Both the position numbers and the translations under genes were made by a program. The notes beneath the pieces were generated by a model that had not been told where the DNA came from, did no database searches, and saw only the letters and a program-made list of their open reading frames with translations. This document shows positions 2,395 through 17,967 of a stretch of DNA of 64,000 nt, piece after piece. Positions within the stretch are counted from its first letter, which is position 1. The number at the start of each line of letters is the position of its first letter. Source of the DNA: Acidobacteriota bacterium (GTDB lineage: Bacteria > Acidobacteriota > Terriglobia > Bryobacterales > Bryobacteraceae); the NCBI GenBank assembly GCA_016185425.1, contig JACPNQ010000035.1:64001-128000 (forward strand), given 5' to 3'.

Positions 2395-5300
2395 ATGAGA
2401 CTATTGTTTTTTGCACTCACTCTGGCTACGTTAGCTTTCGCGCAGGACCGAGGCCGTTTTACCGGACTCGTGGCCGACACGACTGGCGCGGTGGTTCCAG
2501 GCGCAACTGTAAAGGTCAAGAACGAGAAGACCGGTTCGGAGCGAGTCGTGACGACATCGGAGACCGGCATGTTTTTTGTCACGAACTTAAGCCCGGCAAC
2601 ATATACGATCACCGCCTCCAGCAATGGATTGAGCGACGCGGTCTATAAGGAAATCAATCTGGCGCTGGCCCAGGAACGCACTGTCAACATTGTAATGCAG
2701 CCGACTACGGTGAGCACGGAAGTGACGGTTTCCGGCGGCGAATTGGCCGTCGTCGACACGAGTTCGGCTTCAGTCGGGGCAAACGTGAATGCGCGCGAAG
2801 TGGCGCAGTTGCCGATCAACGGACGGCAGGTTTCCCAGTTGTATTTGCTGGCACCCGGCGCGCAAACAGCGGGCGGCGGCACCTATGACAACATCCGATT
2901 CTCCGGCCGCGCGAATCAGCAGAACGCCGTGCGGTTTGACGGCGTGGAAGCTTCGTCCATCATCGACGCCTCACCGGGCAATCTGAACGGGCAGACCTCC
3001 TCGAGCTTCCGCCTGCAGGCGAGCCTGGAGACCGTGCAGGAGTTCCGCGTGGAATCGAGCAATTACCCCGCTGAATACGGCACCGGCACCGGTGGGCAGA
3101 TCGGCATTATCACGAAGTCCGGCGGCAATCAGATGCACGGCGCGTTGTTTGAGTACCTGCGCAACAATGCTCTGGACGCGCGGAATTTCTTCGACGGATT
3201 GAACAAGTCGCCGCTGCGGCTGAACCAGTTCGGCGGTTCGCTGGGCGGGGCGATTATTAAGGACAAGCTGTTCTACTTTGGGCACTATGAAGGGCTGCGG
3301 CAGCGCGCGGGATTCCCGCTTGTCGGACAGACGCCAAGCCAGGTCATTCGCAATCTTCCCGTGTGTGGTACGGGTGTCTCAGGCCGCTGCGTTGACGCGG
3401 CGGTTAAGCCGCTGTTGGCAGCGTTTCCTATTGGCAACTACGGCACGACGACGAACCCCGACTTCGACGTTGCGCGCCTCGACGGGCGCGCGCTGGTGAA
3501 TGAGAACTCGGGCAGCGCGCGCTTCGATTATCGCCAGGGCGACAAGAACCAGTTCTATGTGCGGTGGTTCCGGGACGATGGGTATTCGACGGCTCCGTTC
3601 GACGTTTCCGGCAGCGCTTTCGTGCAGAGGGCTGTGGCGCAAAACGCCGTCCTGAACTGGCAGCGCATCATCTCGCCCACTGTGATCAACGAGGCGAAGT
3701 TTGGCTACAACGGGCCGAAAACGCGCACGAACGGCGAGGCGCCCGTCGTGCCGGGATTGGACCTTTCGGGTGTGACGCTGAACATCACCGGCGCGAACGT
3801 GCTGGTGGGCATCGGCGGCCAGGGCGCGAGCGCCGGCATCTCCATTCCCTCCGGCCAGGTACGCTCGAGTAGCGCGACCAACGGCCGCGGCCAGCCCTAC
3901 ACCAACTACTCGCTCAGCTACGTGGACAACCTGAGTTGGGTGAAGGGCAATCACAACATCAAGTTCGGCGGCGAGTTCCGCCAGGTGCGTCTGTATACGG
4001 ACCGATTGGGCGGCGTAACCTATGCGTTCAGCAACTTGAATGCGTTTCTGGCGAATACGCCGGCGATCTCCGTCAACGGCGACTTGAGCGCGCCTAGCCC
4101 GTTCAACAACGGCGCAACCGGCAACCGGTTTGGCAAGACGGAGATGTTCAGCGCCTATGCGCAGGACGAGTTCAAGCTACGCCCGAACCTGACGCTGACC
4201 TATGGCCTGCGGTACGAATACTACACGCCGATGCGCGAAGACCGCAATCTGGTGGTGCTCTACAACATCGTCACCGGCGGATTGGATGCGCCGGGCAGCC
4301 GCTCGTTCTATCAGAGTTCGAAGACGGCGTTCGGGCCGCGCCTCGGCCTGAGCTGGGCGCCTTCGATGCTTAACAACAAGACAACATTTCGCATTGGCGG
4401 CGGCTACTACTACGGCCCCGGCCAGGGCGAGGACTTGATTCAGCCGATCGAGAGCGACCGCGTCAGTACGACGGCGGCGGGCCGCTATCCGGTGGATGCC
4501 AATGCGATCGTGAGAAACTTCAACCTCAGCACCGCCACTGGCATCGGCGTCCGTGCGTATGCGCCGGGCTACACGGTCCCGGAGAAGATCCTTTCTTACA
4601 CCGCTTCGGTGCAGCAGCAGTTGTGGGGCGGCGCCGTTTTGCAGTTGGCATACGTTGGAAGCCAGGGACGCAACCTGTTCCTGCGCAGCATCGCCAATAA
4701 GGTTGTCGGCGTAACGATGAATCCGGTGACGGGCGCCGGCTCGGCGGTCCGTGAGTTTGGATCTAAATTCGGTGAGATCGACTACAAGACCACCGGCGGA
4801 ACTGACAACTACAACTCGCTGCAGACGACGTTGAATCGGCGCTTCAGCCGCGGCCTGACGCTCGGCGCGCAGTGGACGTACGGACACAGCATTGGCAACA
4901 CGGGCGGCTCAAACGAAGCCAACACCGCGTCGAACCCATACAACTTCCGCGCAGACCACGGCAACAATGCATTCGATGTGCGCCACAGCGCCAACGTCTC
5001 CGCGATGTATGAGCTGCCCTTCGGGAAAGGCCGCCAGTTCGGATCGAACGTTGGACGTACGGCCGGCTTGATCGCAGGCGGCTGGGCGCTGGGCGGCATT
5101 GTGAATGCGCGCACAGGCCTGCCGCTCGATATCCGCATCACGCGGCCGGATATCGTCTATCGCGACACGCGCAACAACGCTATTGTCAACTCGCCGATCG
5201 TGCTTGGCGATGGCACCGTGGCGACGGTCCCTGTGATCAACGTGCCGGGCGGCGGTAACTCACGCGATGTGCGGTTCCCGGACGTAGTCGCGGGCGTGAA

Positions 5301-5697
5301 CCCCTTCCTCGTGTCGAGCGACCGTCGCTTGATCGTAAACCCGGCTGCGTTCGCGACGCCCGCTCCGGGCACATTTGGCAACCTTGGCCGTGGCGCGCTG
5401 CACGGACCGGGGCTCTCCCAGTTCGACCTCACTCTGCACAAGAAGTTCTCGATCACCGAACGGATCGCATCCGAGTTCCGCTTTGAGGTCTACAACCTCT
5501 TCAACCGCGCGAATTTCGGTAATCCAGTGGTGCGCCTGAACAACGTACTCGGTACGGGTACGAACCAGTTGCAGCCGGGTCAGGCATACACCGCGGCAAC
5601 GGCAGGCTCGTTCGGGCAGGCGTTGCAGACGGTGGAATCCGCTGTCGGCCTGGGCGCGCAGCGGCAGATTCAGTTGTCGCTGCGGTTCAGCTTTTAA
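2395..5697 (+). CDS. TonB-dependent receptor with N-terminal carboxypeptidase-regulatory domain (Oar-like)
   Basis: An 1100-residue outer-membrane receptor. Residues 1-17 are a signal peptide. About residues 20-105 form a carboxypeptidase-regulatory-like beta-sandwich (GRFTGLVADTTGAVVPGATV...TITASSNG). A plug domain follows (~110-230; REVAQLPINGRQVSQLYLLAPG, EYGTGTGGQIGIITKSGGN), then a long beta-barrel with repeated DNLSW/ KFGGEFR / YGLRYEYYTP strand motifs, ending in QLSLRFSF with the terminal Phe expected for outer-membrane insertion. This architecture is expanded in Acidobacteria and is thought to import large nutrients such as oligosaccharides or peptides; the substrate cannot be told. 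A GAGGG Shine-Dalgarno-like run precedes the ATG. It ends 3 bp before the convergent cytochrome gene. Confidence 0.9.
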   Translation: MRLLFFALTLATLAFAQDRGRFTGLVADTTGAVVPGATVKVKNEKTGSERVVTTSETGMFFVTNLSPATYTITASSNGLSDAVYKEINLALAQERTVNIVMQPTTVSTEVTVSGGELAVVDTSSASVGANVNAREVAQLPINGRQVSQLYLLAPGAQTAGGGTYDNIRFSGRANQQNAVRFDGVEASSIIDASPGNLNGQTSSSFRLQASLETVQEFRVESSNYPAEYGTGTGGQIGIITKSGGNQMHGALFEYLRNNALDARNFFDGLNKSPLRLNQFGGSLGGAIIKDKLFYFGHYEGLRQRAGFPLVGQTPSQVIRNLPVCGTGVSGRCVDAAVKPLLAAFPIGNYGTTTNPDFDVARLDGRALVNENSGSARFDYRQGDKNQFYVRWFRDDGYSTAPFDVSGSAFVQRAVAQNAVLNWQRIISPTVINEAKFGYNGPKTRTNGEAPVVPGLDLSGVTLNITGANVLVGIGGQGASAGISIPSGQVRSSSATNGRGQPYTNYSLSYVDNLSWVKGNHNIKFGGEFRQVRLYTDRLGGVTYAFSNLNAFLANTPAISVNGDLSAPSPFNNGATGNRFGKTEMFSAYAQDEFKLRPNLTLTYGLRYEYYTPMREDRNLVVLYNIVTGGLDAPGSRSFYQSSKTAFGPRLGLSWAPSMLNNKTTFRIGGGYYYGPGQGEDLIQPIESDRVSTTAAGRYPVDANAIVRNFNLSTATGIGVRAYAPGYTVPEKILSYTASVQQQLWGGAVLQLAYVGSQGRNLFLRSIANKVVGVTMNPVTGAGSAVREFGSKFGEIDYKTTGGTDNYNSLQTTLNRRFSRGLTLGAQWTYGHSIGNTGGSNEANTASNPYNFRADHGNNAFDVRHSANVSAMYELPFGKGRQFGSNVGRTAGLIAGGWALGGIVNARTGLPLDIRITRPDIVYRDTRNNAIVNSPIVLGDGTVATVPVINVPGGGNSRDVRFPDVVAGVNPFLVSSDRRLIVNPAAFATPAPGTFGNLGRGALHGPGLSQFDLTLHKKFSITERIASEFRFEVYNLFNRANFGNPVVRLNNVLGTGTNQLQPGQAYTAATAGSFGQALQTVESAVGLGAQRQIQLSLRFSF

Positions 5698-5700
5698 CCG

Positions 5701-6111
5701 CTATTGACCCAACTCGTGGCAGGCGTTGCAGACAACTGTGGCGCGGTTCTCTTTGTGGCAGTCGACACAGGCCGCCATCTTCGTGGACCGGTACAGTTCG
5801 ATCTTCGCCTGCTTTTTAACGTTTCCGTGGCAGGAAGTACAGTCCACTTGGGCTGTGGCATGGCGGGCGTGACTGAAGAAGACAAAGTCGGGCAGTTTGT
5901 AGATGCGCTGGGAAGGGATGGGTTGCTCGGCCTTCCCGGTGTGACAGGTATGACAGGTCTTCCATGCGGGGAAGCCGGCGCGCTCCCTGGTCACCGCGCC
6001 GGTATGGCAGAACGTGCATTCCAGGTTCAGCGACGCATGACGCTTGTGGGAGAACGAGGGTTCTCCAAACACCGGCAGCAGCATTCCGGTGATGAATAGA
6101 AGCACTCTCAT
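5701..6111 (-). CDS. Secreted pentaheme c-type cytochrome (c7/class III-like)
   Basis: A 136-residue protein with a signal peptide (MRVLLFITGMLLPVFG) and five CxxCH haem-binding motifs: CTFCH, CHTCH, CTSCH, CVDCH and CNACH. Isolated His residues in FSHKRHA and FFSHARHA lie ahead of the haem sites and would act as distal ligands, as in cytochrome c7 / NrfH-like proteins. It is likely a periplasmic electron carrier. Its start ATG shares one base with the stop codon of the upstream bestrophin gene (TGATG), implying translational coupling in a three-gene unit with the tricorn-type protease. Confidence 0.85.
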   Translation of the reverse strand: MRVLLFITGMLLPVFGEPSFSHKRHASLNLECTFCHTGAVTRERAGFPAWKTCHTCHTGKAEQPIPSQRIYKLPDFVFFSHARHATAQVDCTSCHGNVKKQAKIELYRSTKMAACVDCHKENRATVVCNACHELGQ

Positions 6112-7010
6112 CAGAGCCCTTCCGGCAACGCGTCGCGATGCAATTTTTCAATATCCGCCAGGGCATACAGATTCTTGTGAATGGTTTCGCAGATGTCTTC
6201 GAGCGGCAGGTCGTTATCATCATGACCGAAGGGCCCTTCAATCTCCACACCGATTTCTTCAATGCCGAAAAACGTATAGGCGAGCAACAGCACGCCGGCT
6301 ACCGTAGTCCAGCCGAACGATTCCACCATCGCGAACGGCAGTGTGAAGCAATAGATAACAAGCGAGCGCCGCAGATGCACAGCATATGCGAACGGCATCG
6401 GCGTCTTGCGAATGCGTTCGCAGGCGCCGGCATAATCGACGAGTTGCTGTACGTTTTGATCGAGTGAAGTAAAAACGATGTCGGAAATCAGGCCCTTGTC
6501 GCGCGCCTCGCGCAGGCAGTGGGTGATATTGACGGCCACGGCAAGCGCCGGGTGCTGTGCGTCAAGTGCTTCCTGGGCTTCGTGGACCGGAAGTTCGCGG
6601 ATTTGCGGCCCGAGCCCGTCGGTGCCGCGCAATCCGTGCATGGCGGCCCATGGGAATGCAACCGTCCAGCGCGTCAAACGGGCGATCAGCTCCGGGTCGT
6701 CCTTCAGGTGCACGCAGGCGGAGCGGACCAGGTTGCGTGTCTCGTTGACGATACCGCCCCACAGCTTGCGGCCCTCCCAGAATCGCTCGTAACTGGAGCT
6801 GGTGCGGAACACCAGCAGCATGCCCATGGCCACGCCCATCAGCGTATGCAGCAGCGATGGCATGCCCACGTCGTGCACATGTTTATGGAAGGCCACGACC
6901 CCGGCGGACCAGGCGACGCAGACCGCCACCCGTCCGCCGATCTCACGCACCAATGAGCCGCGGACGTCGAAGAAATGGTCAAGCCACTTATGGGGGTCGT
7001 ATTGGATCAT
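6111..7010 (-). CDS. Bestrophin-family (UPF0187) membrane channel protein
   Basis: A 299-residue integral membrane protein matching bacterial bestrophins, which form pentameric ion channels in the inner membrane. Characteristic segments are an N-terminal membrane pair (IGGRVAVCVAWSAGVV, LMGVAMGMLLVFRTSSSYERFWEGRKLWG), the strongly conserved RTSSSYERFWEGR motif after the first helices, the LTRWTVAFPWAAMHGLRG region, and a C-terminal LLLAYTFFGIEEIGVEIEGPFG segment followed by DLPLEDICETIHKN. Ion selectivity cannot be inferred. It starts 3 bp after the protease gene stop and overlaps the cytochrome start by one base. Confidence 0.85.
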   Translation of the reverse strand: MIQYDPHKWLDHFFDVRGSLVREIGGRVAVCVAWSAGVVAFHKHVHDVGMPSLLHTLMGVAMGMLLVFRTSSSYERFWEGRKLWGGIVNETRNLVRSACVHLKDDPELIARLTRWTVAFPWAAMHGLRGTDGLGPQIRELPVHEAQEALDAQHPALAVAVNITHCLREARDKGLISDIVFTSLDQNVQQLVDYAGACERIRKTPMPFAYAVHLRRSLVIYCFTLPFAMVESFGWTTVAGVLLLAYTFFGIEEIGVEIEGPFGHDDNDLPLEDICETIHKNLYALADIEKLHRDALPEGL

Positions 7011-7013
7011 TCG

Positions 7014-10000
7014 CTATTTCGCGTGGTTCGGGTACGCAGGTTCCGCGGGCTTTCTCGACGGATTCCTCTTCATCTGCTCAAGGGCGATCGCGATCGCCTT
7101 TTCAAGCTGCGGATCATGGCCCTGGCGAACCGCGGCGGGATCGCTCCATGATTCCACATCCGGCGCCACACCCTTGTTCTCCACATCGAACGCGCCGCTC
7201 AAATTGCGGAAGGCAAAGTTTGGCGCGGTGAGCGTGCCGCCGTCCATCAACACCGGATAGCCAAGGATGCCCACCAGCCCGCCCCAGGTCCGCGTACCGA
7301 CCAGAGGGCCGAGCTTGTGGAAGCGGAAGTAGTAGGGCATTGCATCACCGCCCGAGCCAGCGAATTCGTTGATGATCATCACGCGCGGCCCGGTGATACC
7401 CATCACGGGCGTGGTCGTGTCGTTACCGTATCTCGTGCGCCAGTAGTTCATCGGCTCGCGGCGAAGCACGTCGATCACGTAGTCAGCCGCCTGTCCGCCG
7501 CCGTTGAAACGTTCGTCAATGATGACCCCTTCCCGCCCCGACTGCGCGAAGTAGTAGCGGACGAAGCTCCGATATCCGCTCTCGCCCGTGTCCGGCATAT
7601 ACACGTAGGCAAGCTTGCCGCCGGAGGCCTGATCGACTTTGCGGCGGTTGCTTTCCACCCAGTCGAAGTAGCGGAGTTCGGTATCGGTTGCGACCGGCAC
7701 CACAACAGCGTCGCGCGCGTTTGTACCGGAAGGATCGGCGCTTACGCGCAGCTTCACCTGTTTGCCGGCGCGGCCCTCAAGATACGAGTGGATTTCGATG
7801 CCGGGAGTTACATCGCGGCCGTCGATCGACAGGATATAGTCGCCCCGCCGGACGTCGACGCCCGGAGCTGTCAACGGCGCGCGCAGAGCCGGATTCCAAT
7901 TCTCGCCGTTATAGATCTTGGCGATCCGGTAGCGCCCGTTGGCCACTTCAAAATCGGCGCCGAGCAGCCCGCCCGCGACCTTCTTCCCGGCGGGCACTTC
8001 TCCGCCGCGCACGTACAAATGGCCGATGGTGAGATGGCCCAACATCTCCGCGAAGAGATAATTCAAATCCGCGCGCGAGCCGACGCCGCGCAGATACTTT
8101 TCGTAGCGTTCCGACATTGCGCGCGCGTCCACGCCGTGCAGATTCGGGTCATAGAAATACTCGGCCTGCATGCGCCAGGCCTCGCGATACATCTGCTTCC
8201 ACTCCTCGCGCGGATCCACCCACACCTCAATCGCACTCGTGTTAATCACGCCTTCGCCGGCCTTCGGCGGCACCCCCGACGGCACGATTGACCATTCCGA
8301 TCCCTTCTTTAACAGGATCTTGTCACCATCGGCGGAGAGCGTCCAACTGTTCACACCTTCAGCAAAGACAGCACTCTTTCGCGCCTTCATGTCGAATCGA
8401 TGCACCACGCCCGGCGCGGGATCGTGGCTCTCGTGCAGATAGAGAATGCCTGCTTTGCCGGCCTCCAGGCCGCCGTAGTCGCGAGGCGGCACGGGGAGCG
8501 CGAGAATGCGTTGGTTAAGGCCATCGGTGTCGATCCGCACCACGGGCTTCCCTTCTTTCTCCGAATCCTTCTTCTCTGTCTCCTCGTCGCTCTCCGCGGC
8601 AAGCGGTGATGGTGTATCTTTTCGCAACACCATCACGTAGGCGCTCCGGTTCACGGAGAACGGATCGGAAGTCATATCGATCCAGCCGAGCGTCGGCCCG
8701 GAATTCGTCGACGCCGCGAAGTACAGATACAGACCGCTCCGGTCGAAGACCGGCCAGCGTGCGTCGCTCATGCCGTCGGTAAGCTGAATCGTTTTGCCGT
8801 CCTTCACCGAGTACGCGAAGATAGCGTGAAAATGCGACGGCAGCTCCTTCGTATAGGCGATCCACTCCGAATCCGGCGACCACGACGGATTGAATGAGCG
8901 GACGGGATCATAGTAGTAGTCCTTCGCGATTTCAGTCACTCTGCCGGTGGCGAGCTCGACCAACAACAGGTTCAGCCGGTTGTTCTCGCATGCAATCCAT
9001 TTCGAGTCGGGAGACCACACCGGATCGAAATAGTATCCGGGCTTGTCCGCCATGCGAATCGTCCGCTTCTCGCCGTCGCCGGCCTGGTCGCGGATCACCA
9101 ACGCATATCCGCCGCCCTCATCGCTGAACCACGCCACCGACTTCCCATCCGGCGACCAGGCTGGACCGCGATCATGCGCGCCGGGCGATTTCGACAGGAC
9201 GCGCACGTCGCCCTTCTCCGCCGGAACTGTGACAATCTCGCCGCGCGCCTCGAACACAGCTCTCTTGCCGCTCGGCGAGAGCGCAAAGCCGCGCAGCGCG
9301 TCCGCGGCCTTCATCCATCGCGGGCGTACTTCGCCGATATCGGCATCCACCGTAACGGGCACATCCGTCAGCTTTTTCGACTTCAAATCGTACAATTGCA
9401 GGCCGCCGAACTTTTCGAGCACAATCGCGCCCGGACCCGCCGACGCGGACTTGTAATCGAGCGCCGAATTGTCGAGCACACGCCGTACCTTCTTTCCCGC
9501 CGTGTCATAAGCGAAGAGCTTCACGGCGCCTTCTCGGTCGGAAAGAAAATAGACCTCGTTGCCGATCCACATCGGATCGAAGTCCGCCGAGTTTTCGCGT
9601 GGAACCTCCGCAACCGACGAGTCGCTCATCTGCCCGATCCAAATCTTCGTCGTCATCCCGCCGCGATAGTGTTTCCAGGAGTCATAGCTATGCGGCGGGC
9701 GGAAAAAGCCGATCGGCATGTAGGCGATGTGCGCACCATCGCCGGAGAACGATGCGGCCACGGCAAAGTGGAAAGGCAGGGGCTCTTCTGCGCCGCCGGC
9801 CGCGGGTATGCGGAATAGCTGGCGATAACGGGTTGTCGTCGCCGCGCGGCTGGAACGAAACACAATGTACTTTCCGTCGTTTGTCCAGGCAGTAGGCTCG
9901 TCAACGCCCGGATGATAGGTAATTCGCCTCGGAACACCGCCGCTGACGGGCACCGTGTATACGTCGAAGTTACCGTCATATTCCCCCGCAAAAGCCACCG

Positions 10001-10211
10001 TTCTCCCATCGGGTGAGAACACCGGATATGTCTCCACGCCCTGCCCGCTGGTAAGTCGCGCGGCGGCGCCGCCGCCCTTGCCCACGCGCCACAGATCGCC
10101 GGCATAGGAAAAGACGATGTCCGTCCCGTTGAATGCCGGACGCTGGGGCAGAATCGAGTTCTCCTGCGCCAACAGAGGCACTGCGAGAAGCAGCGGCAGA
10201 ATGCGAATCAT
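7014..10211 (-). CDS. Tricorn-type S41 protease with N-terminal beta-propeller
   Basis: A 1065-residue exported protease of the tricorn/S41 family. A signal peptide (MIRILPLLLAVPLLAQ) is followed by two blocks of WD40-like/TolB-like propeller repeats (VFSPDGRTVAFAGEYDG, AWSPDGKSVAWFSDEGG, VWSPDSKWIACE), a linker rich in Glu/Lys, a core domain (HLTIGHLYVRGGEV, with the likely catalytic His), a PDZ domain (DYILSIDGRDV) and the S41 domain. The nucleophile is the Ser of EFAGSGGDAMPYYF, near residue 953. Tricorn-type enzymes degrade oligopeptides; this one should act in the periplasm. The ATG at 10211 is preferred because it begins the signal peptide, although the frame stays open to 10538. First gene of a unit with the bestrophin and cytochrome genes. 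Confidence 0.9.
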   Translation of the reverse strand: MIRILPLLLAVPLLAQENSILPQRPAFNGTDIVFSYAGDLWRVGKGGGAAARLTSGQGVETYPVFSPDGRTVAFAGEYDGNFDVYTVPVSGGVPRRITYHPGVDEPTAWTNDGKYIVFRSSRAATTTRYRQLFRIPAAGGAEEPLPFHFAVAASFSGDGAHIAYMPIGFFRPPHSYDSWKHYRGGMTTKIWIGQMSDSSVAEVPRENSADFDPMWIGNEVYFLSDREGAVKLFAYDTAGKKVRRVLDNSALDYKSASAGPGAIVLEKFGGLQLYDLKSKKLTDVPVTVDADIGEVRPRWMKAADALRGFALSPSGKRAVFEARGEIVTVPAEKGDVRVLSKSPGAHDRGPAWSPDGKSVAWFSDEGGGYALVIRDQAGDGEKRTIRMADKPGYYFDPVWSPDSKWIACENNRLNLLLVELATGRVTEIAKDYYYDPVRSFNPSWSPDSEWIAYTKELPSHFHAIFAYSVKDGKTIQLTDGMSDARWPVFDRSGLYLYFAASTNSGPTLGWIDMTSDPFSVNRSAYVMVLRKDTPSPLAAESDEETEKKDSEKEGKPVVRIDTDGLNQRILALPVPPRDYGGLEAGKAGILYLHESHDPAPGVVHRFDMKARKSAVFAEGVNSWTLSADGDKILLKKGSEWSIVPSGVPPKAGEGVINTSAIEVWVDPREEWKQMYREAWRMQAEYFYDPNLHGVDARAMSERYEKYLRGVGSRADLNYLFAEMLGHLTIGHLYVRGGEVPAGKKVAGGLLGADFEVANGRYRIAKIYNGENWNPALRAPLTAPGVDVRRGDYILSIDGRDVTPGIEIHSYLEGRAGKQVKLRVSADPSGTNARDAVVVPVATDTELRYFDWVESNRRKVDQASGGKLAYVYMPDTGESGYRSFVRYYFAQSGREGVIIDERFNGGGQAADYVIDVLRREPMNYWRTRYGNDTTTPVMGITGPRVMIINEFAGSGGDAMPYYFRFHKLGPLVGTRTWGGLVGILGYPVLMDGGTLTAPNFAFRNLSGAFDVENKGVAPDVESWSDPAAVRQGHDPQLEKAIAIALEQMKRNPSRKPAEPAYPNHAK

Positions 10212-10251
10212 GAGCGTATTATCGCAACGAAAGTTCCTGTAGATTGAGGAA

Positions 10252-10645
10252 ATGCATAGCAGGCGAGCGGTACTGACAGCGATGCTGCCGGTGTTGGCGG
10301 GATGCGGGTCGAAGCGGCAAACGACGGATGGGAATCGGGATCCGTGGAGCAGGCGGGCTTCGATGCGAATGCGCTGCGGCAGTTGTCGGCGGATTTGGGT
10401 GCCGGCAAGTTTCCGAAAACGCACTCCGTGATCGTGGAGAAGAGCGGCCGAATCGTCTATGAGCGGTACTTCGCGGGCGAAGATCAGCGATGGATTCAGC
10501 CGATGGGCCATCGAGTGATGGACGCCGATAGCTTGCACGATCTTCGCTCCGTTTCAAAGAGCGTAACCTCAGCCGTTTTAGGCATCGCGATCCGCAAAGA
10601 CTTCGGCACCATGCTGGCCAGGCCGATCCTGTCTTTCTTTCCCCG
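10252..10645 (+). pseudogene. Serine hydrolase (beta-lactamase/class C-like) lipoprotein, frameshifted and 3'-truncated
   Basis: From ATG 10252 the frame encodes a lipoprotein signal peptide, MHSRRAVLTAMLPVLAGCGS, with lipobox LAGC. Around 10300-10325 the homology moves to another frame, which reads DGWESGSVEQAGFDANALRQ and then LHDLRSVSKSVTSAVLGIAI, with the S-x-x-K catalytic motif of beta-lactamase-like serine hydrolases. Recognisable homology stops at PILSFFP, near 10641, after about 115 of the ~350-400 residues expected. Beyond this point the frame runs antisense to a lipase gene and is not protein-like. The Tyr and His/Lys-Thr-Gly motifs of the family are absent, so an active enzyme is unlikely. 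It is divergent from the protease at 10211. Confidence 0.75.
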
Positions 10646-11072
10646 GCTCCCCGCACGCCCCGGTCACGAATACTCCATGGTTCGGCGTACCGGCGAGAAT
10701 CGCATGAGAAACAACGCCCGCACCACCGCCGTTCTTAATGTAGTTCCGAATCGTATTCCCGCCGCGGCTGCTGCCGATAAGGGCCACTCTCTTCGATTTC
10801 GTCTCCAACAGCAATCGCGTGACCGCGGCACTCAGCTCGACGGCCTGGTCCGTCGTGGAAGAGCGGTACGTCTCGACCTTTGCGTCGTTCAGTCGCGCGC
10901 CCGGATTGGTGAACCGAACGGCGAACAACTTCTCCCGCGGATAGCCGTTCGAGTCGAAGAGCCAAATGATACCCATCCACTTGGCCGCATCGTCGCCGTT
11001 GCCGTGAACAAACACGATCGGCGGTTGGGCTGTGAGAGTCACGGCGGCGAGCAGGAAGAAGCGCATCGCCAT
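10578..11072 (-). pseudogene. Secreted alpha/beta-hydrolase (lipase-like), 3'-truncated
   Basis: The first ~135 residues are a secreted lipase-like alpha/beta hydrolase: signal peptide MAMRFFLLAAVTLTAQ, oxyanion-hole region PIVFVHGNGDDAAKW, nucleophile elbow VALIGSSRGGNTIRNYI (G-S-S-R-G) and HAILAGTPNHGVF. After NHGVF (near 10667) the sequence becomes arginine-rich, non-homologous and antisense to the serine hydrolase fragment, until a stop at 10578. The Asp and His of the catalytic triad, which should lie downstream, are missing. The ATG follows the glycosyltransferase stop directly (TAGATG), so this was the last gene of the six-gene operon from 15442. Confidence 0.7.
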
Positions 11073-11891
11073 CTAGAGTACCGAGAGAATAGCCGACACG
11101 GCCTGGTCCGTGCCATCGGCGGGCTCGCGGAAGAAATGTCGCATGCGCGCGTGCTGATCGTCGTAACGCCGCGCGAACGGAACAGCGGTGTGTCGATCGC
11201 GGTGGACGAGCAGGTCGGCCATTGAGTTGTACCCCGCTCCCGTAATGATGCGCCGTGCACGATGGTACAGGTTCGTGGCGGGATAGTATTCAACATGAGA
11301 CCACGGCGAGATCACCGCATATGGCGGTTCCGCCAACGCAATCAGCGCGGCCACCTCATCCTCCGGCCCGCTGTGCACCACTAGCGTCAAATCATTGCGG
11401 TCCAGTTCCGGCGGCGCGGGCACCGCGATCCGCGCCGGAGGCAATAGAATCGGGCCGTCCAGCACGACGGACGGATTCAACTGGTCCGCATGATCTTGCG
11501 CCAACGGCTCAGCCAACAGCGTCAGAGTGAAGTCCCCGGCGTAAATCGGGAAAGGCGTCAGCAATCGGCGCGCGACGTGTATCAGCGGCACGGAGAGCGG
11601 AACGCCGCGCCACTCCTCCCGCAGCCCATACGGAAACGTATCCGTCACCACGGCCCGTGGCTTCACATCCTCAACAAACTGCCGCGCGGCGGCGGCCCAC
11701 GCCTCCCCATCCAGCGCGACTATCGGGCAGCGCGCCAACAACGCCAGGCCGTGGGCAAACGGCGAATTCGTCACAATTCGCGCATCCATTCCCGCATCAC
11801 GCAGCCGCAGGCAGATAGCCAGCGCGCGATTCATATGGCCCAATCCGCCGCCCGGCGCGAAGTAGGCGACTATACCCCGATCAATCCGCAC
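11073..11891 (-). CDS. MurG-like / GT28-type glycosyltransferase
   Basis: About 272 residues when started at GTG 11891 (VRIDRGIVAYFAPGGGLGHMNRAL). The N-terminal G-G-G-L-G-H-x-x-R motif is that of MurG-like and other GT-B glycosyltransferases that survey a nucleotide-sugar donor, and the C-terminal half contains RIITGAGYNSMADLL, the GT28 'G-G-x-N/T-x-x-E' type donor-binding region in a variant form. The sugar and acceptor are unknown. It overlaps the 3' end of the upstream GT4 gene by 22 bp. The frame extends upstream to 12110, but that part is antisense-like shadow of the GT4 gene. The start is uncertain. Confidence 0.7.
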   Translation of the reverse strand: MRIDRGIVAYFAPGGGLGHMNRALAICLRLRDAGMDARIVTNSPFAHGLALLARCPIVALDGEAWAAAARQFVEDVKPRAVVTDTFPYGLREEWRGVPLSVPLIHVARRLLTPFPIYAGDFTLTLLAEPLAQDHADQLNPSVVLDGPILLPPARIAVPAPPELDRNDLTLVVHSGPEDEVAALIALAEPPYAVISPWSHVEYYPATNLYHRARRIITGAGYNSMADLLVHRDRHTAVPFARRYDDQHARMRHFFREPADGTDQAVSAILSVL

Positions 11892-13000
11892 AGCACATCC
11901 AACTCGCGCTCCGGCGAGAACTCCATCACCGCAAAGTCGCGGACCGCCGCCGACATCTTCCTGTACTCCGCTCCACCCATCGTTATCGCCCGCGCGGTTG
12001 CTGTGCCCGCCGCCGTGCGATCCTCGCTCGCAAACAGAAATCCATTCACCCCGTCCGTAATCAGTTCCCGCATCGCGCCCGCATCCGACACAATCGGCAC
12101 CACGCCGCACGCCATCGCCTCCAGCAGGACGTTCGGCATGCCTTCAAACATCGACGGGATGGCGACAAAGTCCGCCGCCGCGTAGAGTCCCGCCAATTGA
12201 TCGGGCGCGGAGAAGGAAATCCGCACACTGCGTGGCGCAATGGCCGGGTCATCCAGGATCGCAGCCGTCGGCGCGTCGAGCGTACCAACCACCAGCAACC
12301 GCAACCGCTCCATGAGTCCCAAGTCGCGTACTGCCTCCAGCCAAAACGGGATTCGCTTCTTCGCCTTTAACTCGCCAAACAATCCGATCACGCGCACGCC
12401 GTCCACGGCTCCCAATAGTCCGCGCACCTCGTCGCGCCGCGCGCGGTCCGCCGGTAGCAGTTCCCAGCGCGACACATCCACACCGTTTGGCGTCCACTCC
12501 ACGCGGGCTGACGGATAGAGCGCCCGGATCCGCTCTACCTTCTCCATCGTCACGGCGCCGATCGAGGTCGCTCGCGAAAGCGCCTCCCGTACCATGCCGC
12601 CCCGCTGCGGCCAGAACCAGTCGCGATCCAAATCGTTTCCACGCACCAGCACGGTGGACCGCGCGCCAAGCCAGGCCGCAAAAGTCACGGCGTGAAACCC
12701 GCCGGTCGACGCACCAAAACCCACCGCGTGCGAATAGGGCGAACGCGCGTGCAGCGTCTGTGTCAGTATCCACGCCTGGTTGGACGACATCGCCGGTTCC
12801 GTCTCCGCGGGAAGAAGAATATCGGCGCCGCCATCGCGCTCCTCGATACGCGCCTCAAAAACGTTCGCGGCGCCGAGTACCAACACGTCCACGGCAACGC
12901 CGCGGCGGCGCAACCCGCGCACCTGCCGCGCACAACTCACCGACATGCCGCCGCCCGCGGGCGGATAGCGGTCGGTGATCCAAAGAATACGGCCGCTCAT
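11870..13000 (-). CDS. GT4-family glycosyltransferase
   Basis: A 376-residue retaining glycosyltransferase of the GT-B fold. The N-terminus ILWITDRYPPAGGGMS is the usual acceptor-domain start, RVEWTPNGVDVSRWEL is the inter-domain 'PNGVD' motif, GLFGELKAKKRIPFWLEAV starts the second Rossmann domain, and FVAIPSMFEGMPNVLLEAMACG has the E-x7-E donor-binding motif. It probably adds a sugar to a surface glycan or glycoprotein; the specificity cannot be read. Its ATG overlaps the upstream zinc-finger gene stop (ATGA), so the genes are coupled. Confidence 0.85.
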   Translation of the reverse strand: MSGRILWITDRYPPAGGGMSVSCARQVRGLRRRGVAVDVLVLGAANVFEARIEERDGGADILLPAETEPAMSSNQAWILTQTLHARSPYSHAVGFGASTGGFHAVTFAAWLGARSTVLVRGNDLDRDWFWPQRGGMVREALSRATSIGAVTMEKVERIRALYPSARVEWTPNGVDVSRWELLPADRARRDEVRGLLGAVDGVRVIGLFGELKAKKRIPFWLEAVRDLGLMERLRLLVVGTLDAPTAAILDDPAIAPRSVRISFSAPDQLAGLYAAADFVAIPSMFEGMPNVLLEAMACGVVPIVSDAGAMRELITDGVNGFLFASEDRTAAGTATARAITMGGAEYRKMSAAVRDFAVMEFSPERELDVLCGLIGV

Positions 13001-13341
13001 GTCTCCTTCGGGTCGTAACGCTGCTGCTTCGCCGGCGGATTGGCGCCAAATGCCCGCTGCGACATCGCCGCCGAATCGGCGCTGGAGAAGAATCCGCGCT
13101 GCCCGAATTGCGCCGCGCCGCCATACTGCGTGAAGTACTGCCCGCGCGTCTCCGCGATGTCCGTGTCGTCGTTATCCTCGTAGCCCGCCGCTTGCGACGC
13201 GCACTGCGGACATGCAGGTCCGGCGTCGCCCATCATCGTGTGCATCGGGCAGATCTGGCGTCCGCACATGCCGCACGCTCCACTCGCCGGTGCGCCGCAC
13301 TCTCGCATCACCAGCATCCCCAACTGGTATTCGCAACTCAT
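12997..13341 (-). CDS. Small B-box-like zinc-finger protein, unknown function
   Basis: A 114-residue soluble protein. The first ~50 residues carry seven Cys and one His in the pattern C-x7-C-x2-C-x4-C-x2-H ... C-x2-C (segments CGAPASGACGMCG, ICPMH, CPQC), as in B-box-type zinc fingers found at the N-termini of bacterial membrane proteins. The remainder is low-complexity, rich in Gln, Gly, Ala and Asp, without a membrane helix. The start ATG overlaps the stop of the upstream membrane-protein gene (ATGA) and its stop overlaps the next glycosyltransferase start, so it is an internal member of the glycan operon. The longer open frame back to 13728 is antisense shadow and was not used. Confidence 0.7.
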   Translation of the reverse strand: MSCEYQLGMLVMRECGAPASGACGMCGRQICPMHTMMGDAGPACPQCASQAAGYEDNDDTDIAETRGQYFTQYGGAAQFGQRGFFSSADSAAMSQRAFGANPPAKQQRYDPKET

Positions 13342-14258
13342 TGCCCACCCCCCGCCGCCGTCGGCCGCATGCCCGTCAGGCGGATAAACAACCTGACGAT
13401 GTCGGCGGGCGGTAGCGTGTCTTGCGGTGGCTGCCCGGCCGATTTGAACTTGTAGTATCGATCCAGCCGCGCGACCATCACCCCGTTCTTCTCTGAAAAC
13501 GATAACTTTTCGCACGATTTCTCGATGAACTTCTGCATCCGTGCCGGCTCCCATTTCATCGGCGCCGCTGGGATCAAAATCGCCGTCGCTGTGGTCGCCT
13601 TCTTCCACTTCGTTTTCGACTTGTACTTCCCGCGCGGCGTTTTGTAGCTGCGCTCCAGTTTGTGGTACTCGTTGTCCACGCGCAGCACCGCTGTACTTCC
13701 ATCGGCCAACGGCATGCGCATATCGCACACAGCGGCTTCAAACACGCTCAGCTTCAGACTGCGATTCTTTCCTGGCGGTAGGTTCTTGCTGAATTTGCGC
13801 TGCTTTTCGTCCAGCATCGTCAAGTTCAAATCCACTCGAACCTTTTGGTCCGGATGAAAATCCTGGCTCAACTGCTTCAACATGGGCCGTATCGCGAGGC
13901 GCAATTCGTTCGGGATGTCCGCCTTCGTGAGCTCATTCAGCTTTCGCCTGAAATAGAAGATCGACGCCAAGGGCACGACGAATGGGATTGGCGCCATCCA
14001 AAGGGAATCGGTCACCGCGCCAACGAAGAACATCAGGAAGAATCCAAGCACCGTTGCCACGATGCTGCCGATCCAAATGCCGTTCGCCTTGGACTTGCGC
14101 TTCTCGATCGTCAAATCCCACCGTTCCAATTCCCCCAGCAGCTTCACCAGAGCCCGCGCATTCCAGGCTCCGGTAATCTTTCGCGTCTCTATGGCCTGGC
14201 GGGCGTCCGGAGAGAGGTCCGCTTCCTGGTTAATCGCTGCGCTGCTCGGTTTGCTCAT
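13338..14258 (-). CDS. Two-TM membrane protein, unknown function
   Basis: A 306-residue protein with an N-terminal soluble stretch of ~60 residues, two adjacent hydrophobic helices (about residues 62-82 and 88-106: GSIVATVLGFFLMFFVGAV, MAPIPFVVPLASIFYF), and a ~195-residue cytoplasmic or periplasmic C-terminal domain. That domain holds a hydrophilic beta-rich segment (KVRVDLNLTMLDEKQRKF, STAVLRVDNEYHKLERSYKT) and a Lys-rich loop. I do not recognise the family. It is bracketed by 4-bp overlaps with the upstream GT4 gene and the downstream zinc-finger gene, so co-expression with both is expected. Confidence 0.7.
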   Translation of the reverse strand: MSKPSSAAINQEADLSPDARQAIETRKITGAWNARALVKLLGELERWDLTIEKRKSKANGIWIGSIVATVLGFFLMFFVGAVTDSLWMAPIPFVVPLASIFYFRRKLNELTKADIPNELRLAIRPMLKQLSQDFHPDQKVRVDLNLTMLDEKQRKFSKNLPPGKNRSLKLSVFEAAVCDMRMPLADGSTAVLRVDNEYHKLERSYKTPRGKYKSKTKWKKATTATAILIPAAPMKWEPARMQKFIEKSCEKLSFSEKNGVMVARLDRYYKFKSAGQPPQDTLPPADIVRLFIRLTGMRPTAAGGGQ

Positions 14259-15442
14259 CCGGTCACCCCAGTTATTCGTGCCGCCGCTACACGGCGAAAC
14301 ACCGCCGTGAGTTGTTCATGCGCAATCGCTTGGGAAAAGTAATCACGCGCCGACTGTTTTGCCGTAGCCGACAGTGTATCTCGAAGCTCGTGGTCGCGAA
14401 ATAATCGCTCTATCGCCAGAGCCCAGGCCCGCCGGTCTCCCGGCGCTGCAAGCCATCCATTCTCGCCATGCCGGATCAGCTCGCGGCTCACCGCCAGGTC
14501 CGACGCAAGCACCGGTGTCCCGGCGGCCATTGACTCCACTATCTTCACGGGGCAGCAGCCCTGTCGCGTGTTCCGCGACGTCTCCGCCAACGGAGCCACC
14601 GTAAATCGCAATCGCGCCATCACCGCTGCCAACTCCTCCGGCGGCAGGGGCTCATGCAGCAAAACTCGCGAGCCCATTCCGAGCTTCGCGATCTTCCTTT
14701 CCAGTGCAGGCGCGTCTCGATTCCCGCTATGCACAATCAACAGCCGGCCGGCCTGCGTCAGCGCGAAGGCGTCGATTAGAAACTCCACGCCCTGCCACGC
14801 CTGCAAGCCGCCTATGTAGCCGCACCACTCGCCATCCGCCAATGCCGCCACCGGGCACGGCCACCCGCCGCCACGGAAAAACGTCTCGCTCGCGGCGTTG
14901 GGGATCACGCAAACGCGCTCGGCGCCCACACCTTCCTCAATCAGCGCTCGCCGCGTGACACGCGATACGCAAAGAACCTCCGTCGCGCTCCGCAGGCATG
15001 CCCGCTCCATATCGCCGATCTTCGCTTGCAGCGCGGCGCTCTCCGCAAATCCGGGACGCGAATATGCCAACTCCCAGGACGGCAGGGCATTCAGCTCGAA
15101 TATCGCCGGGCACTCCGGCGTCGCGCGCAGGCAAGGGATGCCTCCCCACGGATCGCGGAACACCGTCAACTCCAGAGTCCGCGAATGCTGCCGCGCGTGA
15201 AACTCCACAAATTCCGCGAACATCGTCGCGCGCTGCAAAACGTCGCGGTGCCCGCCCGGTAGCCGGTAAATCGTTATCTCATCCTGCCGCTCCACTGCGG
15301 GTAATTCCGTATCGCCCAGGCAGAGCACGCACACCGGTGCGAACTCCCTCGACAGCGCCGACACCATGGACGCGATGTGGCTCGACGATCCCTTCGGCCG
15401 CGGATAGACGTCGAAGGCCACATAGAGTGCCCGTGCGCGCAT
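14255..15442 (-). CDS. GT4-family glycosyltransferase, first gene of the operon
   Basis: A 395-residue GT-B glycosyltransferase. Supporting features are the N-terminal acceptor domain (ALYVAFDVYPRPKGSSSHI, where a Gly-Ser loop contacts the phosphate of the donor), VCVIPNAASETFF in place of the 'PNGVD' hinge, YIGGLQAWQGVEFLIDAF at the start of the donor domain, and CPVKIVESMAAGTPVLASD, the K-x2-E-x-M-A-A-G-x-P-V donor-binding motif. It heads the minus-strand operon of six overlapping genes ending at 10578. It starts 8 bp before the racemase-like gene's stop, also on the minus strand, so read-through from 16770 is possible. Confidence 0.85.
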   Translation of the reverse strand: MRARALYVAFDVYPRPKGSSSHIASMVSALSREFAPVCVLCLGDTELPAVERQDEITIYRLPGGHRDVLQRATMFAEFVEFHARQHSRTLELTVFRDPWGGIPCLRATPECPAIFELNALPSWELAYSRPGFAESAALQAKIGDMERACLRSATEVLCVSRVTRRALIEEGVGAERVCVIPNAASETFFRGGGWPCPVAALADGEWCGYIGGLQAWQGVEFLIDAFALTQAGRLLIVHSGNRDAPALERKIAKLGMGSRVLLHEPLPPEELAAVMARLRFTVAPLAETSRNTRQGCCPVKIVESMAAGTPVLASDLAVSRELIRHGENGWLAAPGDRRAWALAIERLFRDHELRDTLSATAKQSARDYFSQAIAHEQLTAVFRRVAAARITGVTG

Positions 15443-15450
15443 GGAGTCTA

Positions 15451-16770
15451 TTATGGCCGAACGATTGTTCCATCCAGCCTGCGGTCCGTCCCACGGTTCT
15501 GCCCTGGCGTTTTGTATGGAAACTTCGCCGCAGCCTTTTCGTCCACATCCACTCCGAGTCCGGGCTTGTCGTTCGCATACATATAGCCGCCCGTGATCTC
15601 CGGTGCGCCGGGAAACACCTCGCGCATTGCGGCGGAGAAGCGGTTCTCTTCCTGAATGCCGAAGTTATAGGAGGCCAAGTCCAGATGCATGTTCACCGCA
15701 TGGCCGATCGGCGATACGTTCCCCGGCCCATGCCACGCCGTCCGGACGCCGAACATCTCGCAGCAGCACTGAATCTTCCGCGCCAGGCTCAAGCCGCCAA
15801 TCGCGGAGATATGGATACGAATGAAATCGATCAATCGGTTCTGCACCAGCGGCAGCCACTCATTTCGATTCACGAACAACTCGCCCATCGCGAGCGGCGT
15901 CGTTGTCTGCTGCCGCAGCACGCTGAACCACTGCGCGTCCTCCGGCGCAAACGGATCCTCCATAAAGAACGGCCGGTACGGTTCCACAGCCTTGCATAAT
16001 TGCAGTGCCTGCGGTGGTGGCAGCCTTTCGTGCACATCGTGCAGCAGGTCCACGTCGAATCCAATCTTCGAGCGCAGATGCTCGAACATCTTCAGCGTGT
16101 TGTTCAAGTACGGAGTCGGCTCGAACACGGGTGAACCGGGCGTCCCTCGCGGCCGTGCGTTCTGCACCGTCTCCGAGGTCAGCGAGTTGGCGCCATACGT
16201 CGCGAATCCCGGCACGCCGAGCTGCACACGCACATGGCGGTAGCCTTCGGCCTGATACTGCCGTACCTTCGTCTCCAGCTCCTCCAGCGTGGTCGCGCTG
16301 GCGTGAGTATAGAGCGGCACCGCCGTCCGCACCTTGCCGCCCAGCAGCTTATAGACAGGCATGTTGGCACGCTTGCCAAGGATGTCCCACAACGCGCCGT
16401 CAATGCCCGAAAGCGCGTTGTTCAACGTCACGCCGCTGCGAAAGTACGACGCGACGTATTGCGTCTGCCAGATGTCCTCAATCGCCTCCGGATCCTTCCC
16501 AACAAGTGCCGGTTTCAAATACTGTTCAATTGCCGCCGCCACCGCCAGCGGCCGCTCCCGGTGCGTCGCGCAGCCAACACCATACAACCCCGGCTCGCTC
16601 GTCAGCACTTTCACCGCCACCAGATTGTCCGCGCCCGGTTGCGTCAGAATCACCTTGACATCGGTGATCTTCAACGCCGGCGTGCCGCGATTCGCCTGTG
16701 CCAGGGCTGCCTGCGGGGCGCCTGCCAATACGCTGATTCCGCCCAAGACGTTCCGCCGTGAAGTCTTCAT
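15451..16770 (-). CDS. Enolase-superfamily (mandelate racemase / ManD-like) sugar-acid dehydratase, exported
   Basis: A 439-residue member of the enolase superfamily. The N-terminus MKTSRRNVLGGISVLAG has a twin Arg and a hydrophobic stretch, typical of Tat export. Metal ligands of the barrel are seen in DVDLLHDVHERL, RPFFMEDPFAPED and GELF, and the C-terminal HGPGNVSPIGHAVNMHLDL resembles the D-mannonate dehydratase/RspA subgroup, in which the barrel acids bind Mg2+ and act on aldonic acids. Exact substrate is not inferable. It is divergent from the Gfo/Idh/MocA gene at 16807 (36 bp gap), and the two likely act in one carbohydrate pathway. Confidence 0.8.
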   Translation of the reverse strand: MKTSRRNVLGGISVLAGAPQAALAQANRGTPALKITDVKVILTQPGADNLVAVKVLTSEPGLYGVGCATHRERPLAVAAAIEQYLKPALVGKDPEAIEDIWQTQYVASYFRSGVTLNNALSGIDGALWDILGKRANMPVYKLLGGKVRTAVPLYTHASATTLEELETKVRQYQAEGYRHVRVQLGVPGFATYGANSLTSETVQNARPRGTPGSPVFEPTPYLNNTLKMFEHLRSKIGFDVDLLHDVHERLPPPQALQLCKAVEPYRPFFMEDPFAPEDAQWFSVLRQQTTTPLAMGELFVNRNEWLPLVQNRLIDFIRIHISAIGGLSLARKIQCCCEMFGVRTAWHGPGNVSPIGHAVNMHLDLASYNFGIQEENRFSAAMREVFPGAPEITGGYMYANDKPGLGVDVDEKAAAKFPYKTPGQNRGTDRRLDGTIVRP

Positions 16771-16806
16771 GGCTGTAGAGTCTATCAGTCGGATACCATC
16801 AAAAGC

Positions 16807-17967
16807 GTGAACCGGCGTACGTTTCTCGCCGCATCTCTTTTGCCTGTGGCCGCGGAGGACCGGCGTCTGCGTATGGGTGTCGTTGGCGGCCGTTTCGGAG
16901 CCTCATTCTTCTTCCACGAGCACCCCAACGCTATCGTCACCGCCGTCGCCGATCTGCGCTCCGATCGTCGCGCCACGCTCATGAAGACCTACCGCTGCGA
17001 GAAGGCGTATGAGTCGCTCGACGCACTACTGAAAGACGAGAGTGTCGAAGCCGTCGGCCTCTTCACGCCCGCGCCGGACCACGTTCGCCATGCGCTCCAA
17101 TGCCTCCGCGCCGGTAAACACGTCCTCTCCGCCGTTCCCGCGGCCATGTCGCTCGAAGAGTGCGATGAGCTGATCAACGCCGTCAAAGGCTCCGGACTTA
17201 CCTACATGATGGCCGAGACAAGTTACTACCAGCAGCTCACCATCTCCGCGCGCAAATTCTTCAACGAGGGTGCCTTCGGCCGCATCTACGCCTGCGAAAG
17301 CGAGTACCATCACGCCGGCCTTGATTCGCTTTTCGTCGAAGACGGCCGGCGCACATGGCGCTATGGTTTCCCGCCCATGCACTACCCCACGCACTGCACC
17401 GCCCATCTGCTCAGCGTCACCGGCGAGCGCATCGTCCGCGCCACCTGCATCGGCTGGGGCGATAACGATCCCATCCTGCAGGACAACGTCTATCGCAATC
17501 CGTTCTGGAACGAGACCGCCCTGTTCCAAACCAACCGCGGCACGTCCTTCCGCGTTGCCGTCTGGTGGAAAGGCGCACATCGGGGCACCGAGCGCGCCCA
17601 ATACTTCGGCGACAAGATGAGCTTTTTCTTCGCCCATCCCAACGGACTCGGCCCGGCTACGGTGAAATGGAGCACGCTGCGGGAAAAGGACAGCGGCGGC
17701 TTCGCACGCCAGGCGGCGGTGCTCGAAAAGTACGAGGAAAGGAAGTGGTGGGCAACGGAGATGCTGCCGGAGCCGCTGCGCCATAACAGCGGCCACGAAG
17801 GCTCGCATACCTTCCTCACGCACGAGTTCATCGATGCAGTTCTCAATCAGCGCAAGCCGGCCGTTGACGTCTACGCCGCCGTCAACTTCACCGCGCCCGG
17901 TATAGTCGCCCACGAGTCCGCGCTAAAAGGCGGGTTGCAAATGGACGTCCCCGTCTTCGGAGGCTGA
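16807..17967 (+). CDS. Gfo/Idh/MocA-family oxidoreductase
   Basis: A 386-residue NAD(P)-dependent oxidoreductase family protein. The GTG start gives a short twin-Arg N-terminus (NRRTFLAASLLPVAA). It is followed by a Rossmann domain beginning MGVVGGRFGASFFFHEHP, where the usual G-x-G-x-x-G is shortened or modified. AGKHVLSAVPAAMSLEECDEL matches the conserved 'GKHVxxEKPxA' segment, but Ala replaces the usual catalytic Lys (E-K-P becomes V-P), so true dehydrogenase activity is uncertain. The C-terminal alpha/beta domain (HYPTHCTAHLLSVTGERI) is intact. It is divergent from the enolase-superfamily gene and 3 bp upstream of the TfoX-like gene. Confidence 0.8.
   Translation: MNRRTFLAASLLPVAAEDRRLRMGVVGGRFGASFFFHEHPNAIVTAVADLRSDRRATLMKTYRCEKAYESLDALLKDESVEAVGLFTPAPDHVRHALQCLRAGKHVLSAVPAAMSLEECDELINAVKGSGLTYMMAETSYYQQLTISARKFFNEGAFGRIYACESEYHHAGLDSLFVEDGRRTWRYGFPPMHYPTHCTAHLLSVTGERIVRATCIGWGDNDPILQDNVYRNPFWNETALFQTNRGTSFRVAVWWKGAHRGTERAQYFGDKMSFFFAHPNGLGPATVKWSTLREKDSGGFARQAAVLEKYEERKWWATEMLPEPLRHNSGHEGSHTFLTHEFIDAVLNQRKPAVDVYAAVNFTAPGIVAHESALKGGLQMDVPVFGG

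Follow-up and report, generated by a model that had tools for sequence, protein, structure and literature searches.

The 64,000-nucleotide stretch of acidobacterial DNA analysed here (the window) contains a scar that joins the 5′ remnants of two genes, one for an S12 serine hydrolase and one for a class 2 lipase, and that probably dates from a deletion which this lineage underwent recently. The hydrolase homology on the plus strand and the lipase homology on the minus strand met within approximately 10650–10668 in tblastn, blastn and codon alignments, with no leftover sequence between them (Table 1).

Open frames of 307 and 164 amino acids cross this point. In the hydrolase frame, GC content by codon position changed from 0.60/0.45/0.73 before the junction to 0.76/0.46/0.62 after it; similarly, the lipase frame changed from 0.57/0.47/0.76 to 0.82/0.52/0.56. 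As both frames pass from third-position to first-position GC richness, the open frames past the junction are antisense to the opposite gene, and these portions of the 307- and 164-residue ORFs are antisense read-through. The original prediction of two convergent hydrolase genes ending at one junction, each followed by an antisense shadow, was thereby borne out. It had placed the homology ends at PILSFFP near 10641 for the hydrolase and NHGVF near 10667 for the lipase; here the hydrolase homology reaches FFPRL at 10649 and the lipase homology stops at 10668–10669. A repeat search at the junction found no long or inverted repeat, and a search there for an RNA element found none. Repeat-mediated deletion was rejected, as only two short direct-repeat families were present and neither links the hydrolase and lipase ends.

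Table 1. Coordinates of the junction, the gene remnants and their flanks in the window.
Feature	Position	Strand	Evidence
Intact tricorn-like S41 protease gene, left flank	7014..10211	-	Pfam PD40, PDZ_Tricorn, Tricorn_C1, Peptidase_S41; colinear with G003
5′ remnant of S12 (beta-lactamase-type) serine hydrolase gene, probably lipoprotein	10253..10660	+	45–52% amino acid identity to orthologues; right edge 10650–10661
Probable frameshift between lipobox and mature hydrolase domain	10305..10325	+	Lipobox and NDGW in successive frames
Antisense read-through of lipase frame, non-coding	10578..10658	-	Codon-position GC 0.82/0.52/0.56
Junction	10650..10668		Hydrolase homology stops from left, lipase from right; codon-position GC switch
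5′ remnant of class 2 lipase gene	10659..11072	-	Retains signal peptide and GSSRGG nucleophile elbow; 80% identity to G003 orthologue
Antisense read-through of hydrolase frame, non-coding	10662..11225	+	Codon-position GC; no family match above cut-off
Glycosyltransferase-like genes, right flank	11073..13000	-	Colinear with G003; blastn 11097–15427 to L116 at 71%

The minus-strand ORF starting at 11072 matched the lipase family PF01674. With the closest orthologue its homology continued down to 10668/10669, stopping after NHGVF; with other relatives it reached 10661. The remnant retains approximately the first third of the protein (136 of 405 residues) and is 80% identical to the 405-residue orthologue in the relative G003 (L002) and 65–68% identical to those of seven further genus members; the genus lipases whose matches span most of the query lie in open frames of at least 407 residues. 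The GxSxG nucleophile elbow is present as GSSRGG, which is invariant among the orthologues, but the remnant lacks both the LDHREVAF region, the likely site of the histidine or remaining triad, and the Lipase_C domain, which are present in G003. The surviving part of the lipase shows no acceleration relative to the intact orthologue: dN/dS between the two was approximately 0.09, and residues unique against outgroups numbered, for example, six in the remnant and eight in the intact copy. The lack of acceleration dates the truncation as recent relative to the split from G003, although the lack of decay fits an assembly error equally well.

The hydrolase remnant partially matched Pfam PF00144 (profile positions 18–67 of 329) and was 45–52% identical to intact orthologues in G416 (L201, frame of 393 residues) and G601 (L202, 383 residues) and to a decayed copy in G007. 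It also retains approximately the first third of the protein, some 120 of 350–380 residues. Its homology, in the frame opening at 10302, reaches 10649, or at most 10661 against the G007 copy. The SxxK box is present in this frame as SVSK, aligned with SISK of the intact orthologues, but the catalytic tyrosine motif (YYSGG region) and the C-terminal region are missing, and nothing corresponding to the downstream motifs was found 3′ of 10649–10661 within the window. The natural start codon, ATG at 10253, lies in another frame and encodes MHSRRAVLTAMLPVLAGC with the lipobox VLAGC; the mature part, from NDGW onward, lies in frame 10302, whereas orthologues carry signal peptide and mature domain in a single frame. 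The use of two frames points to a probable frameshift, placed at about 10305–10325.

Catalytic residues are missing from both remnants, which are pseudogenes; judged by the known features of the two families, neither should be able to work as an enzyme of its family. Each gene was predicted to have lost its 3′ half, but comparison with intact relatives puts the loss at approximately two thirds in each case. Full genes do exist in relatives, as a 405-residue lipase in G003 and in other genus members and as hydrolases in G416 and G601; the short forms seen in the window were sought in relatives and were not found.

The nearest syntenic relative, G003, is colinear with the window on both sides of the junction (3562–10228 and 10669–17960), in the same order and orientation, barring small insertions and losses. 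Its gene order is glycosyltransferases, lipase, enolase-superfamily dehydratase, DHDPS-family aldolase and tricorn protease. This order spans two contigs that share an exact overlap of 147 bases: the lipase-bearing contig, C159, breaks off within the beginning of the tricorn gene, and C98 opens with the overlap. A second relative, G010, covers the region in part (tricorn, aldolase, dehydratase), with aldolase and dehydratase 94–95% identical to those of G003. In G003, and as far as covered in G010, these two genes separate the tricorn gene from the lipase, and no such serine hydrolase is present. On the tricorn side, blastn homology to L117 and L116 stops at 10228. Correspondingly, window positions 10229–10668 had no blastn counterpart in G003, and G003 positions 10007–13153 (3.15 kb) had none in the window.

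Insertions and losses between the window genome and G003 look frequent. Within the glycosyltransferase stretch, the window has approximately 1.2 kb extra (15428–16866), which holds a distant enolase-superfamily, dehydratase-like gene (15550–16545, minus strand; 29% identity to the lost dehydratase). Left of the tricorn gene, at 6064–6114, G003 has approximately 1.3 kb more than the window.

The missing pieces were sought throughout the window genome, which is 94% complete. The lipase 3′ part gave no match, and the best matches for the hydrolase 3′ part, the aldolase and the dehydratase were 32%, 35% and 46%, respectively. Relocation was rejected on the grounds that no match in this 94%-complete genome reached orthologue-level identity; within the limits of that completeness, the pieces appear to have been lost rather than moved. 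As in pseudogenes formed by deletion, the missing pieces are absent from the genome, and an intact orthologue is syntenic for the lipase; for the hydrolase, intact orthologues occur only elsewhere.

A deletion would account for the arrangement as follows. In the ancestral stretch, the tricorn protease gene would have stood on the left and a full lipase gene on the right. An S12 hydrolase gene would then have been acquired beside the tricorn gene, with its transcription directed away from the latter; the aldolase and dehydratase still seen in relatives probably also stood between hydrolase and lipase. One illegitimate deletion, with its ends inside hydrolase and lipase, would have taken out both 3′ parts together with all that lay between them. 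Its size would be approximately 3.9 kb if the aldolase and dehydratase were still in place (the 3.15 kb found only in G003 plus approximately 0.7 kb of missing hydrolase), or approximately 1.5 kb if they had gone earlier (the hydrolase and lipase 3′ parts alone); the larger figure is the probable one. The proposal of a single deletion joining convergent genes holds as the best reading with regard to a deletion at one point, but its picture of simple neighbours over some 1.5 kb probably does not, as aldolase and dehydratase lie between tricorn gene and lipase in the relatives that cover the region. That a single event cut both genes, and the exact length removed, are matters that we infer.

The hydrolase itself has a patchy distribution. 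An order-wide search recovered close relatives only in G007 and G021, both of them broken: the G007 copy (L122, 5171–5860) has a frameshift and an internal loss, and the G021 copy (L085, 982–1230) is reduced to 58 residues and runs into an apparent kinase gene on the opposite strand. Intact relatives, at 45–50% identity, come from other families of the phylum. This patchiness suggests that the hydrolase arrived specifically in this lineage. G013 has a complete S12 enzyme from a different subfamily (L119, 579–1472), divergent to the tricorn gene and overlapping its start. It was rejected as an orthologue of the fragment, as the two share only approximately 29% identity over 76 residues. None of the relatives examined was found to have a whole hydrolase next to the tricorn gene; that the window lineage once had the gene in full is likewise something that we infer.

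Two or more steps may instead have led to the junction, a possibility held tentatively but seriously. The hydrolase would first have replaced the aldolase and dehydratase, or these two genes would have disappeared in separate losses; hydrolase and lipase would then have been joined by a later deletion of approximately 1.5 kb. The starts of the hydrolase and tricorn genes are 42 bases apart, which puts the hydrolase start at the site where the aldolase begins in G003 and G010; in G013 this place is taken by a different S12 enzyme. The hydrolase also bears an independent frameshift, which suggests more than one event. A stepwise course requires more events, however, and no intermediate genome was found among the relatives examined. 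Both courses imply the same kind of junction and differ only in the length lost and in how many steps were needed.

It is doubtful that the hydrolase fragment, of approximately 430 bases, was never whole here and represents filler captured during end-joining repair of a tricorn–lipase break, from a donor outside the present genome. The one stretch without a place in the G003 order, 10229–10668, is a fragment, and the copies of this hydrolase in G007 and G021 are both broken, all of which would suit such a capture. Nevertheless, the fragment opens with a ribosome-binding-like sequence, a start codon and a lipobox, as expected of a whole inserted gene, and no donor copy was found in the window genome.

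An assembly error, by which contigs or reads were misjoined at about 10655, is improbable. The original prediction had allowed for a chimeric join, and the undecayed lipase remnant suits one as well as it suits recent loss. The flanks on both sides are, however, colinear with one continuous stretch of a single relative, which makes a join of unrelated loci unlikely and led to the rejection of a random chimeric contig. Furthermore, the missing 3′ parts were not found on other contigs, and no shared repeat is present that could have collapsed. That both short genes encode complete, working proteins, shortened or fused, can hardly be entertained: both frames do stay open past the junction, but their codon-position GC there is antisense-like, catalytic motifs are missing and no other genus member has this form.

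A deletion remains the best explanation, and the junction is a case of ordinary bacterial gene loss; the meeting of hydrolase and lipase opens no new mechanism. It documents a recent acidobacterial loss, which left two dead gene remnants and in which two further genes, for a sugar-acid-type dehydratase and an aldolase-family protein, disappeared. In annotation, both ORFs should be marked as pseudogenes and not as proteins of 307 or 164 residues.

Compared with S12 or beta-lactamase-fold serine hydrolases (PF00144), the first remnant corresponds to the N-terminal third with its SxxK box, but differs in its 5′ frameshift and in having neither tyrosine motif nor C-terminal region. Compared with class 2 lipases that carry a Lipase_C domain (PF01674, PF18067), the second has the signal peptide and nucleophile elbow, but not the likely histidine region or the Lipase_C domain that its intact orthologue has. 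The wider comparison is with bacterial pseudogenes that arose by deletion and with the deletional bias of bacterial genomes (compare PMC2916853 and PMC5447742). The junction resembles such pseudogenes in its truncated genes with intact orthologues, in the absence of the missing DNA from the genome and in its apparent recency; it differs in that one junction truncates two genes in convergent orientation.
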